Assembly (NCBI GenBank): GCA_009885845.1
Contig: VFJW01000103.1
Location: forward strand, 1-64,000
Reading direction: 5' to 3'
From: Geobacter sp.
Lineage (GTDB): Bacteria > Desulfobacterota > Desulfuromonadia > Geobacterales > Pseudopelobacteraceae
Length of the DNA: 64,000 nucleotides
This document shows positions 43,884 to 48,029 of this stretch, one piece after another (position 1 is the stretch's first letter; the number at the start of each line of letters is the position of its first letter). The notes below the pieces were generated by a model. The model ran no database searches and had not been told where the DNA came from. It saw only the letters and a list, made by a program, of their open reading frames with translations. The position numbers and the translations under genes are program-made.

Positions 43884-45269
43884 ATGACGAATTCTAACAC
43901 ACCTGATGTGTTGCTGACCGATTCTCCCGAAAAGTCGCGCGGTCTGAAAGGGCAGGTTTTTTCGATATTCCGGTTAATCTATTCGATTGCTTCCAATTTT
44001 TCCTACCACCAGGCTCCCTTGCGCGCCGCTGCTCTTACGTTTACCACGGTTTTGTCGCTTGTTCCGTTTCTGGCGATCGCGTTCTCTGTGCTCAAGGGAC
44101 TCGGTGCCCAGAATGCGCTTGAGCCGATTCTGCAACAGCTTGCCGGTGATTCAGAGGAAACGATTTCCCGGCTGATCGCCTATGTTAACAACACTAATAT
44201 GAAGTCGGTAGGGGCGATTGGTCTTTTAATGCTGATTGTAACTGTCGTTTCTCTGATGGGAAGTATAGAGGAGGCTTTCAATGCAGTCTGGGGTGTGCGT
44301 GAAACCCGTTCGCTGCAGCGGCGTTTCAGTGATTACCTGAGTGTCGTTGTTGTCGGGCCGATCCTTCTCATTGCAGCAACCAGTATGACCTCCTCCCTGC
44401 AGAGTCAATGGTTGCTGCAATGGTTGATCCAGAACACCTATCTCGGTGAAGCAATCTTGATGCTGTTTCGTTTGCTGCCGTATCTCAGCGTCTGGATCGC
44501 CATGATTTTTCTGTATATTTTCATACCGAATACCCGGGTCCGTTTTTCTTCTGCCGTTACGGGAGGGATTATAGCCGGCACCGCCTGGCAGATGGCGCAG
44601 TGGGGCTACTTTCACTTTCAAGTGGGTGTTGCAAACTACAATGCAATATACGGCACACTTGCCGCCCTTCCCGTTTTTCTTGTCTGGATATACACAAGCT
44701 GGCTCATCGTTCTCTTTGGACTTGAAATTGTGTTTGCTCATCAGCACCGCGATCATGGTTATTCCGGAGGCAGCACATTTCGTTTGACTCCCACGGCTCA
44801 CGAAGAACTTGCCGTGGCTTTGCTGGTGCAGGTGAATCTCTGTTTTCAAGAGGGCCGGGTACCTCCGACGGCCCATCTTATGGCTGATGAACTGAATGTG
44901 CCGCTTATTCCGCTCGAGGTTGTTTTCGATGAGATGTTGCAACTGGGGTATCTGGTTACGACTTCCGGAAACGAGCCTGGCTGGGTGCCGGCTCGTGACC
45001 CGTCGGAAGTCCTGGTGAGCGATGTTCTCGGAGCGTTGCGTGGCGTATCATCTCGACAGGTAACATCTCCGGTACTTCAGCTGGCCGAAGACATTATACA
45101 GCAGGGGTGGGACGGCAGCAGGGATCGTCTTGACGGAGTGACTGTGCGCGATCTGCTGAAGAAATCAGTAACTCCAATTCCAAATAAAAGCGCTATCATC
45201 GTTGGCTCGTCCTCGGCACCTCAACGTACTGATCAGTACGCCTCTGCGCCTCAGTCCTCGCCGCCTTGA
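43884..45269 (+). CDS. YihY/BrkB-family inner-membrane protein with repeat-derived C-terminus
   Basis: This 461-residue protein has the YihY/BrkB core (about 30-290) with six membrane segments and motifs such as YHQAPLRAAALTFTTVLSLVP and AVWGVRETRS. A cytoplasmic winged-helix-like domain (about 300-425) follows. The family is of unsettled function, once thought to be RNase BN. The last 31 residues, from P431 on, are encoded by an inverted-repeat element (45174-45292) and are low-complexity (SSSAPQRTDQYASAPQSSPP), so the original stop was probably lost. Confidence 0.88.
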   Translation: MTNSNTPDVLLTDSPEKSRGLKGQVFSIFRLIYSIASNFSYHQAPLRAAALTFTTVLSLVPFLAIAFSVLKGLGAQNALEPILQQLAGDSEETISRLIAYVNNTNMKSVGAIGLLMLIVTVVSLMGSIEEAFNAVWGVRETRSLQRRFSDYLSVVVVGPILLIAATSMTSSLQSQWLLQWLIQNTYLGEAILMLFRLLPYLSVWIAMIFLYIFIPNTRVRFSSAVTGGIIAGTAWQMAQWGYFHFQVGVANYNAIYGTLAALPVFLVWIYTSWLIVLFGLEIVFAHQHRDHGYSGGSTFRLTPTAHEELAVALLVQVNLCFQEGRVPPTAHLMADELNVPLIPLEVVFDEMLQLGYLVTTSGNEPGWVPARDPSEVLVSDVLGALRGVSSRQVTSPVLQLAEDIIQQGWDGSRDRLDGVTVRDLLKKSVTPIPNKSAIIVGSSSAPQRTDQYASAPQSSPP

Positions 45270-45292
45270 TTTCATCTTTGATTTGGAATTGG
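45174..45292. repeat. 119-base inverted-repeat element at the end of the YihY-like gene
   Basis: Terminal arms CCAATTCCAAAT (45174-45185) and ATTTGGAATTGG (45281-45292) are exact reverse complements. A central perfect palindrome CGTACTGATCAGTACG lies at 45225-45240, flanked by further complementary GAGG/CCTC-rich blocks. The layout is MITE-like, without coding capacity of its own. The YihY-like stop codon at 45267-45269 is inside it. Confidence 0.85.
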
Positions 45293-45332
45293 TATATACG
45301 CAAGAATTTATGCCAGCACTAACGGAGATGCA

Positions 45333-48029
45333 ATGATAGACAAAAGTTTTCTGTCCGGCATGTCCGGAGAAGGGTTTGATTCCCTTTACCGCCAGTGGCA
45401 GTATTCCGCTGATTCAGTGCCGGAAGAATGGCGGCGCTTCTTATCAGGTTTTGAACTTGGGCTGGATAGTGCCTTCAGCACTAACGATTGCTTTGACGAG
45501 CATGCGGCACTAAAACTGTCAGGCGTTCAGTCTCTTATCTATCGCTACCGGTCCCTTGGTCATCTTCTGGCATGTACCGACCCTCTCTCCCCCTGCCGGT
45601 TGTCTCATCCACTGCTTGAACTTTCCAACTTCGGACTTGATGACGGTGATCTTGATACCATCTTTGCGTGTCGTCGTTTTTTGAAGCCGCGCGCTTCTCT
45701 CCGTGAAGTTCTGGATGCCATGCGGGAGACGTATTGTCGGGAAACCGGTGTTGAATTCATGCATATTCAGGATCCTGATGAACGGCAGTGGCTGATCGAC
45801 CGTATGGAGTCGTGCCGCAATCGCCCCGTTTTTTCGACTGCCGAAAAATTGCATATTCTGGAAAAACTTCATCAGGCTGCTCTGTTTGAGCAATTCATGC
45901 ATCGCAGATTCGTCGGACAGAAGCGTTTTTCGCTTGAAGGGGGAGAAATTCTTATTCCGGTTCTGGATCGGATTGTTCATGGTTGTGCGGAAGCGGGAAT
46001 AAGCGATGTCGTAATGGGGATGTCTCACCGTGGGAGATTAAATGTTCTGGCGCATATTCTGCGTAAACCGTATGAAACTCTTTTTGCAGAATTTAAAGAG
46101 AATATATCACTCGGTTTTTTGGGCGATGGTGATGTGAAATATCACAAGGGGCATTCATGTGATATTGACCTGAACGGTCATCGGGTACATGTGACTATAG
46201 CTGCGAATCCGAGCCATCTTGAAGCGGTAAATGCGGTAGTTGAGGGTAAATGTCGGGCAAGACAGGATCGATTTGGTGCCGAGGGTGCCGGCAAGGTACT
46301 TCCGGTACTGATCCACGGAGATGCAGCTTTTGCAGGACAGGGGAGCATAATGGAGGTTCTCAACATGTCGCAGCTTGATGGCTACGGCACCGGCGGAACA
46401 ATTCATGTAGTGCTTAATAATCAGATCGGTTTTACGACGCTTCCTAAAGACTCCCGTTCCACCTGTTATGCCACCGATGTTGCCAAAATGCTTTCCTGCC
46501 CGATTTTTCATATTCAGGGAGAAGCTCCCGAGTCTGCACTGCACGCCGTTGATCTTGCCATGGAATATCGCCGGACATTTTGTCGGGATGTTGTTATTGA
46601 ACTGATCTGTTATCGCCGTCACGGCCATAATGAAGGCGATGAACCGGCGTTCACCCAGCCGAAAATGTATCGGCAGATTGCTGCCCGTCCCCCGGTCAGC
46701 AGGATCTATGAGGCTCTTCTGGCAGAAGAAGCGATAGCAACGCCGGAAACGTTGGAACTGCTTGAACGGCACGTCAACGAAACATTGGAATCTTCTTTCA
46801 GCAAACCTCCGGTAATTGATCCTGCCGGTTTTTCTGACCGGTGGAGCGCCATCAGCTCTGAATACAGCGCTAAACCGGTCGAGACCGCTGTGTCAGTTGA
46901 AAAACTGGTAACACTTGCCCGGCGCTTGGCTGTTCTCCCTTCCGGTTTTATGCCGCATGCAAAAATCGGCACGTTGATTCAAAAACGTTTTGAGTCGGTA
47001 CTGAAAGGGGAGGGGATCGATTGGGGGAACGCCGAAACACTTGCCTATGCGACTCTGCTCGACCAGGGATATTCCGTCCGGATATCCGGACAGGATTCAA
47101 GGCGTGGAACCTTTAATCATCGACATTGCGTCCTTATAGACAGTACTACCGAGCAGAATTATATGCCTCTGGAAACAGTCGTTCGCGATGGTGCCCGTTT
47201 TCAGGCATGGAACAGCTCCCTTTCCGAGTTCGGCGTTCTTGGCTTTGAATATGGCTATTCATTGGAATTGCCTCTCTGTCTCACGTTGTGGGAAGCCCAG
47301 TTTGGTGATTTTGCCAATGGGGCACAGGTTGTTATTGATCAGTTTATTGCGAGTGGAGAAACAAAATGGGATCGTGCCAGCGGGTTGGTAATGCTGCTTC
47401 CTCATGGGTATGAAGGACAGGGAGCCGAACATTCCAGTGCCCGAATTGAACGCTATTTGCAACTGTGCGCGTCAGACAATATGGTTGTGGCCTGTCCATC
47501 GACACCCGCGCAGATGTTCCATCTGCTCCGGCGCCAGATGCTGCAGTCATTTCGAAAACCATTGATCGTATTCACTCCCAAGAGCCTGCTTCGTCATCCG
47601 GTCTGCAGTTCTACAACCGCCGAATTCTGTGATGGCTCTTTCCAGGCATGTCTTATCCCCTCAGGCGGTTTTTCTGCAGCTCGGCAGGTTCTTTTCTGTA
47701 GCGGGAAAATATATTTTGAACTGGAAGAAGAGCGTATTCGTCTGCATAAGGACGATACGGTCATCGTTCGGATTGAACAGCTCTATCCTCTGGATAGAGC
47801 TGCCTTACAGAGTGTCATTGATCAGTGCGGTTCAGAGTGCCGACTGTATTGGGTTCAGGAGGAGCCGGAAAATATGGGCGCCTGGCACTATATGGATCGG
47901 CATTTCAGGGAGATGTCCGCTCTCGTCGGCTATATCGGTCGTCCGGCAGATTCCTGTCCGGCTGTCGGGTCGCATCATATTCATGCCGAACAGCAGGCGG
48001 AAATTTTAAGCAGGGTATTTTTGGAATGA
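45333..48029 (+). CDS. sucA: 2-oxoglutarate dehydrogenase E1 component
   Basis: This 898-residue thiamine-diphosphate enzyme decarboxylates 2-oxoglutarate in the TCA cycle. The N-terminus FDSLYRQWQYSADSVPEEWR and MSHRGRLNVLAHIL are typical, and the cofactor motif runs from GDAAFAGQGSIMEVL to VVLNNQIGFTT. HGYEGQGAEHSSARIERYLQ is in the C-terminal transketolase-like part. The E2 gene sucB, normally next, is absent: the defence island begins within 500 bases of the stop. Confidence 0.95.
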   Translation: MIDKSFLSGMSGEGFDSLYRQWQYSADSVPEEWRRFLSGFELGLDSAFSTNDCFDEHAALKLSGVQSLIYRYRSLGHLLACTDPLSPCRLSHPLLELSNFGLDDGDLDTIFACRRFLKPRASLREVLDAMRETYCRETGVEFMHIQDPDERQWLIDRMESCRNRPVFSTAEKLHILEKLHQAALFEQFMHRRFVGQKRFSLEGGEILIPVLDRIVHGCAEAGISDVVMGMSHRGRLNVLAHILRKPYETLFAEFKENISLGFLGDGDVKYHKGHSCDIDLNGHRVHVTIAANPSHLEAVNAVVEGKCRARQDRFGAEGAGKVLPVLIHGDAAFAGQGSIMEVLNMSQLDGYGTGGTIHVVLNNQIGFTTLPKDSRSTCYATDVAKMLSCPIFHIQGEAPESALHAVDLAMEYRRTFCRDVVIELICYRRHGHNEGDEPAFTQPKMYRQIAARPPVSRIYEALLAEEAIATPETLELLERHVNETLESSFSKPPVIDPAGFSDRWSAISSEYSAKPVETAVSVEKLVTLARRLAVLPSGFMPHAKIGTLIQKRFESVLKGEGIDWGNAETLAYATLLDQGYSVRISGQDSRRGTFNHRHCVLIDSTTEQNYMPLETVVRDGARFQAWNSSLSEFGVLGFEYGYSLELPLCLTLWEAQFGDFANGAQVVIDQFIASGETKWDRASGLVMLLPHGYEGQGAEHSSARIERYLQLCASDNMVVACPSTPAQMFHLLRRQMLQSFRKPLIVFTPKSLLRHPVCSSTTAEFCDGSFQACLIPSGGFSAARQVLFCSGKIYFELEEERIRLHKDDTVIVRIEQLYPLDRAALQSVIDQCGSECRLYWVQEEPENMGAWHYMDRHFREMSALVGYIGRPADSCPAVGSHHIHAEQQAEILSRVFLE

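Follow-up and report, generated by a model that had tools for sequence, protein, structure and literature searches.

A reading frame that ends inside a repeat

How does the gene for a YihY/BrkB protein of a Geobacter species come to take its last codons from a near-palindromic repeat, and where did that gene end before? The question was raised by a window of 64,000 nucleotides (positions 1 to 64,000 of contig VFJW01000103.1, assembly GCA_009885845.1), belonging to a genome of 179 contigs and 3.27 Mb that represents one strain. Within it the reading frame 43884-45269 encodes 461 amino acids, runs into the repeat and meets its stop there. Our analysis leads us to conclude, with a probability of roughly 0.93, that a MITE-like element inserted by transposition at a TNA site (here TAA), five nucleotides ahead of the point where brkB originally stopped, adding a tail of 31 residues. 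The features of the locus are as follows.

43884-45171, forward strand: YihY/BrkB gene as far as it is native, 429 codons plus one base of codon 430 (orthologues end about there)
45169-45171, forward strand: left copy of the target-site duplication, TAA, which lay within GTA-ACG before the insertion (from empty sites and the family rule)
45172-45294, forward strand: MITE-like element copy, 123 bp (from dispersed copies and conserved ends)
45172-45190, forward strand: left terminal inverted repeat, matching the right arm at 16 of 19 positions
45174-45269, forward strand: element-encoded tail, residues 431-461, with the TGA stop at 45267-45269 (from the frame and copy comparison)
45225-45240, no strand: central palindrome, perfect, 16 nt, at the hairpin apex
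45276-45294, reverse strand: right terminal inverted repeat, matching the left arm at 16 of 19 positions
45295-45297, forward strand: right target-site duplication, damaged, TAT for TAA (from empty sites)
45298-45303, forward strand: ACG codon and stop of the original gene, now stranded, the stop changed from TAA to CAA; the old GAATTT comes next (compared by eye with two empty sites)
45333-48029, forward strand: downstream sucA-like gene, starting 38 nt past the element

The initial annotation had proposed from the sequence that a MITE-like element supplies the last 31 residues and the stop codon. The frame and the native stop of relatives bear this out: residues 1-429 are native, whereas the element contributes residues 431-461 and the TGA. 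The tail is Ser/Pro/Gln-rich, as it had been described, with 7 Ser, 6 Pro and 3 Gln among its 31 residues. The protein has a BrkB domain by Pfam (residues 42-289, E 8.7e-57); an AlphaFold2 model had a mean pLDDT of 46.6, too low for interpretation. A weak Rrf2-like match, below the Pfam cut-off, covers residues 309-426 (window 44808-45161); this stretch aligns in orthologues and is an odd partner for a membrane protein. Fourteen named records encode a relative of the BrkB protein, mostly MAGs of Geobacter, Geobacteraceae and Desulfuromonadaceae. The downstream gene, which we take to be sucA (2-oxoglutarate dehydrogenase E1), adjoins brkB in 23 of 29 orthologous loci; in the remaining 6 it was not seen in the stretch of flank retrieved.

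The repeat is a member of a dispersed family with fixed ends

A BLAST search with 45160-45300 against the own genome returned 64 pieces, of which 16 are near-full copies and many others are incomplete or represent longer variants; nine other copies match at E below 1e-30, beyond chance. Matches to the element occur in 65 of 76 genomes of the family (E up to 0.001), and the consensus matches 88 of 141 genomes of the order (E up to 1e-8), so that the repeat is dispersed both at home and across the order.

For the analysis of ends and duplications we took 111 distinct near-full copies from 180 loci. The columns at the ends are conserved, with TWCCAATTYCAAATCAAAG at one end and its inverse at the other. 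At the exact TWCCAATTYCAAATCAAAG offset the three bases flanking the element on the left match those on the right in 62 of the 111 copies, against a mean of 26 and a maximum of 39 in 2000 shuffles of the flank pairs, and longer flank matches are nearly absent. The matching triplets are TAA (31), TTA (23), TCA (4), TGA (2) and single others. From the identity of the flanking triplets at the conserved end offset we infer a 3-bp TNA duplication around a near-palindromic element of 123 bp, a length found exactly in 113 of 171 copies and in most copies of a relative assembled as one contig of 5.1 Mb (G126). The element is short and without a transposase gene, has terminal inverted repeats and a duplication of fixed length, and is represented by dispersed copies and by empty sites; it behaves as a MITE.

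This end offset and the TNA rule place the window element at 45172-45294, with its first base the second base of codon 430. The earlier boundaries, 45174-45292 with entry at codon 431, are adjusted accordingly, while the observation that the frame enters the repeat and stops inside it stands. The arms, previously called exact, are exact over 12 nt and 94% complementary over 17 nt. The central palindrome CGTACTGATCAGTACG is perfect in the window, as had been noticed, yet it is no hallmark of the family, being found in 8 of 171 copies.

3-bp TNA targets are known from IS5-type transposons (IS1031/ISL2 groups), and the element shares this feature; we treat the kinship as a lead and assign no membership. 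An autonomous element with matching ends was not found at IS distance in 37 fetched loci, apart from one 463-bp end pairing in which one end is weak. Among the sites listed for 12 relatives, two of which (G126 and G101) are assembled as one contig, no inverted end pairs were read by eye at up to 1-2 mismatches, beyond which more diverged ends escape the search; the exceptions were neighbouring element copies only, such as two in G031:C49. A search for PF01609 transposases covered three genomes and gave one match in the own genome, at a locus without the element's ends, none in G101 and 23 in G126, where the multicopy elements have ends that differ from those of the MITE.

Empty sites place the insertion just upstream of the original stop

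The 3' end of brkB could be read in 29 orthologous loci. All 29 have their own stop and none has the tail seen in the window; the stops are equivalent to residues 428-441, 26 of them to 428-433 and the other 3 within 11 residues. The comparison of C-termini in relatives, which the initial annotation had pointed to, thus recovers the original gene end, GTA ACG TAA GAATTT. Two empty sites read GTA ACG TAA GATATA (G013) and GTG ACG TAA GAATTTATCC (G024), and the occupied site in the window reads G-TAA-(element)-TATACGCAAGAATTTATGCC.

To the right of the element the old TAACG-TAA-GAATTT persists, altered by an added T and by a T-to-C substitution; ACG-CAA-GAATTT is what remains of the original ACG-TAA-GAATTT. 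Because this flank keeps the old sequence, we infer that the target was the TAA within GTA-ACG and that the original stop, 5 nt further on, was stranded by the insertion. The duplication looked for around the element is present in damaged form, and by itself the window copy is insufficient proof of a duplication, the 3-bp TNA rule being that of the family. Taken together, the repeat search, the C-terminal comparison and the flanks all favour the initial annotation, whose observation is confirmed and whose interpretation is supported.

On this reading the element inserted at the TAA inside GTA-ACG and missed the stop itself. Having landed there rather than on the stop, it is entered by the frame, which stays open for 31 codons as far as the TGA at 45267. 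This is the common stop of the family: in the window's frame the first stop follows after 31 codons in 97 of 171 copies, and 25 of 171 have no stop. The predicted product is the 461-residue protein with its Ser/Pro/Gln-rich tail, and the old stop has been left behind as drifting DNA. Mobilisation was presumably in trans, by a transposase, and the tail is probably near-neutral, since it follows the last predicted domain.

The same gene has been hit in a second genome (G014). There a copy sits exactly on the stop, TAA-(TTCCAATT...AATTGGTA)-TAA-GAACTT, and its duplication recreates the stop codon. Among 44 brkB locus records, with some genomes represented twice, only the window (L061) and G014 (L063, L201) bear the element. 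The two copies are 79.8% identical, which ranks the G014 copy 150th of 170 for the window copy; the closest relatives of the G014 copy are two other copies in G014, and those of the window copy are in G044 and G045. Given this identity and rank, we regard the two insertions as separate events 5 nt apart.

The refuting case named by the initial annotation, such a tail with no flanking arms, did not occur among the tail-only protein matches that were checked, 36 of the 39 listed. Of these, 34 coincide with a listed copy of the element or with its end repeat, and two further ones (G055:C50, G007:C282) overlap element places found in the order-wide search.

Alternative explanations

The element has inserted twice, separately, in one short gap, and in the window it ends 38 nt ahead of the next gene; this raises the possibility that the hairpin is kept for an action on the brkB-sucA transcript (processing, stability or attenuation), the tail being a by-product. 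The RNA fold of the window element is strong (z = -4.7, with none of 200 shuffles equally stable), and such palindromy is expected of MITEs anyway. A consensus scan gave no terminator-like site, Rfam gave no match up to E 1, and among the 44 records scanned the element is present at this position in only the two genomes named above; a promoter scan found nothing. We consider a transcript-level role unlikely on this evidence.

That the tail itself has acquired a function and is maintained by selection seems to us very improbable. The frame is intact and a same-frame tail has arisen in a second protein, but the 31-codon length follows from the element, and the tail is present in the brkB of one genome only, so that selection is unmeasurable. 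Hardly credible at all is a single stop-codon insertion inherited by both the window and G014, with the frame opened by a later 5-nt deletion in the window: the two copies do share gene and orientation and lie 5 nt apart, but their divergence and rank, with each nearest to other copies, led us to set it aside, and the ACG-CAA in the window's right flank fits insertion upstream of the stop.

A second fusion

The fusion at the end of brkB has a counterpart elsewhere in the family. By the gene caller, two of 171 copies form long C-terminal fusions, the window copy and one in an alpha/beta hydrolase (L147, in G055), where the same-frame tail is PITNQSAIFVGSSSAPQRTICTPSSPKSSPP. Homology to the hydrolase in 8 relatives ends at residues 298-300, and their own stops fall at about 300-320 with unrelated last residues; as natural ends vary among relatives, the original hydrolase stop in G055 remains unreconstructed. 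Separately, a response-regulator/histidine-kinase protein (L233:315-2033) has its stop within an element copy, which adds about 9 residues. Where a frame begins within a copy or shortly ahead of one and continues into a gene (as in L128, L140, L156, L172, L247), we took it for a start-codon artefact of the caller.

A share of copies lies on stop codons

The exact landing of the G014 copy on a stop codon bears on where copies of the family lie. Empty sites were reconstructed, and genes were predicted by a hexamer model; its training set comprised about 404 kb, a caller trained on the window alone having been too insensitive. The copies were the best-ranked among the matches listed, a non-random sample. 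Of 164 flank-independent copies, 90 are flanked by the same triplet on both sides. We kept the 87 whose TNA duplication is perfect and dropped the remaining 77. The brkB pair had been merged as one cluster whose representative was dropped for its imperfect duplication, so that the G014 copy stands outside the counts that follow.

Of these 87 clean copies, 31 lie exactly on a called stop (27 TAA, 4 TGA), 42 elsewhere between genes and 14 in called coding sequence. A local null, in which any TNA site of the same intergenic gap may be hit, predicts 17.9 on stops, and a null restricted to the same middle-base class predicts 21.1; under either, 31 was reached in about 1 of 20,000 simulations. The first copy set had 24 on stops against 16.1 expected (P 0.00065; class-matched 18.8, P 0.0075), and the later set had 7 where 1.7 were expected (P 0.00015; 2.3 under the class-matched null, P 0.0012).

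Our first reading of these counts was strong targeting of stop codons. We rejected it because the local null shrank the excess, to 1.5-1.7-fold, and because offsets 5 to 8, with insertions at 2/11, 2/8, 5/11 and 1/8 sites, are similar to the stop itself (24/86 at offset 0). The excess is modest and could be explained by selection against other sites; avoidance of promoters and coding DNA could produce it. That the family prefers to land on stop codons, where the duplication rebuilds the stop, with near misses repeatedly making same-frame tails, is a proposal that we put forward tentatively and somewhat doubt. If it were true, a TNA target that includes TAA and TGA would make the end of a gene a self-repairing landing site. 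The share on stop codons suggests a simple means by which a bacterial MITE could spread cheaply where genes are densely packed. Judged by titles and abstract openings, the papers listed in our literature searches contained no case of stop-codon landing by a TNA-target MITE.

Relation to known systems

C-terminal tails made by MITEs are already published, and the brkB fusion is a well-documented further case. According to the passages available of PMC5896051, an in-frame QMITE2 at the 3' end of enhC in Coxiella burnetii Dugway supplies the C-terminal 33 residues, much as the window element supplies a C-terminus; the element family is different, however, and the stop lies just downstream of QMITE2 rather than inside it. 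The same passages note an unexplained preference of Coxiella MITEs for 3' ends, on which the share of copies on stop codons could bear. Another such case is the amidase ECA3499 of Erwinia carotovora, where, in the passages of PMC2759123 at hand, the 127-bp MITE-like repeat RU-1/ERIC eliminates the normal stop and adds about 34 residues past the conserved domain, ending at a stop within the repeat. As in the window, a repeat removes the stop and supplies both tail and internal stop; family and host differ, and those passages rebuild no empty site. MITEAba12, in the portion consulted of PMC6382973, makes 9-bp duplications and a truncating gene fusion.

Rickettsia palindromic elements resemble the window element in being palindromic repeats of similar size that become protein. 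In the part of PMC10969869 that we used, nearly half of those first reported are translational fusions within genes, whereas long C-terminal tails come from 2 of 171 copies here; frequent in-frame insertion of that type was not found among the clean copies, with 14 of 87 in called coding sequence. The same part describes Chunjie, a MITE that, like ours, resides in a Geobacter (G. uraniireducens), in an operon and between genes; its described size of 178-235 bp compares with 123 bp here. Multicopy sequences of Geobacter metallireducens and G. bemidjiensis, relatives of our host, lie between and within genes and, like the window element, are in some cases palindromic (excerpts of PMC2700814 and PMC2996986); the element family of the window may or may not be one of them. 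The more original part of our analysis is the share of copies on stop codons. The locus itself offers an unusually clean record of a mobile repeat becoming protein, with empty sites, an exact target, a stranded stop, a neighbouring insertion and a second fusion.

Variants within the family

Several copies depart from the 123-bp form. Two records (L023 and L022; G000:C7:3105-3307) show an element copy near the centre of which a GGGAGAGGG-type hairpin repeat appears to be nested, and L025 has a similar hairpin inside a partial copy. In L017, L019, L020, L021 and L027 the element is longer, about 200 bp, with an extra common middle segment around TAACGCACTATCCTG and its complement; this variant is perhaps a second subfamily. 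The single-contig genome G101 contains many copies with near-identical ends, which suggests a recent burst, and the two copies in G031:C49 (15549-16327), about 550 bp apart, could act as a composite unit.
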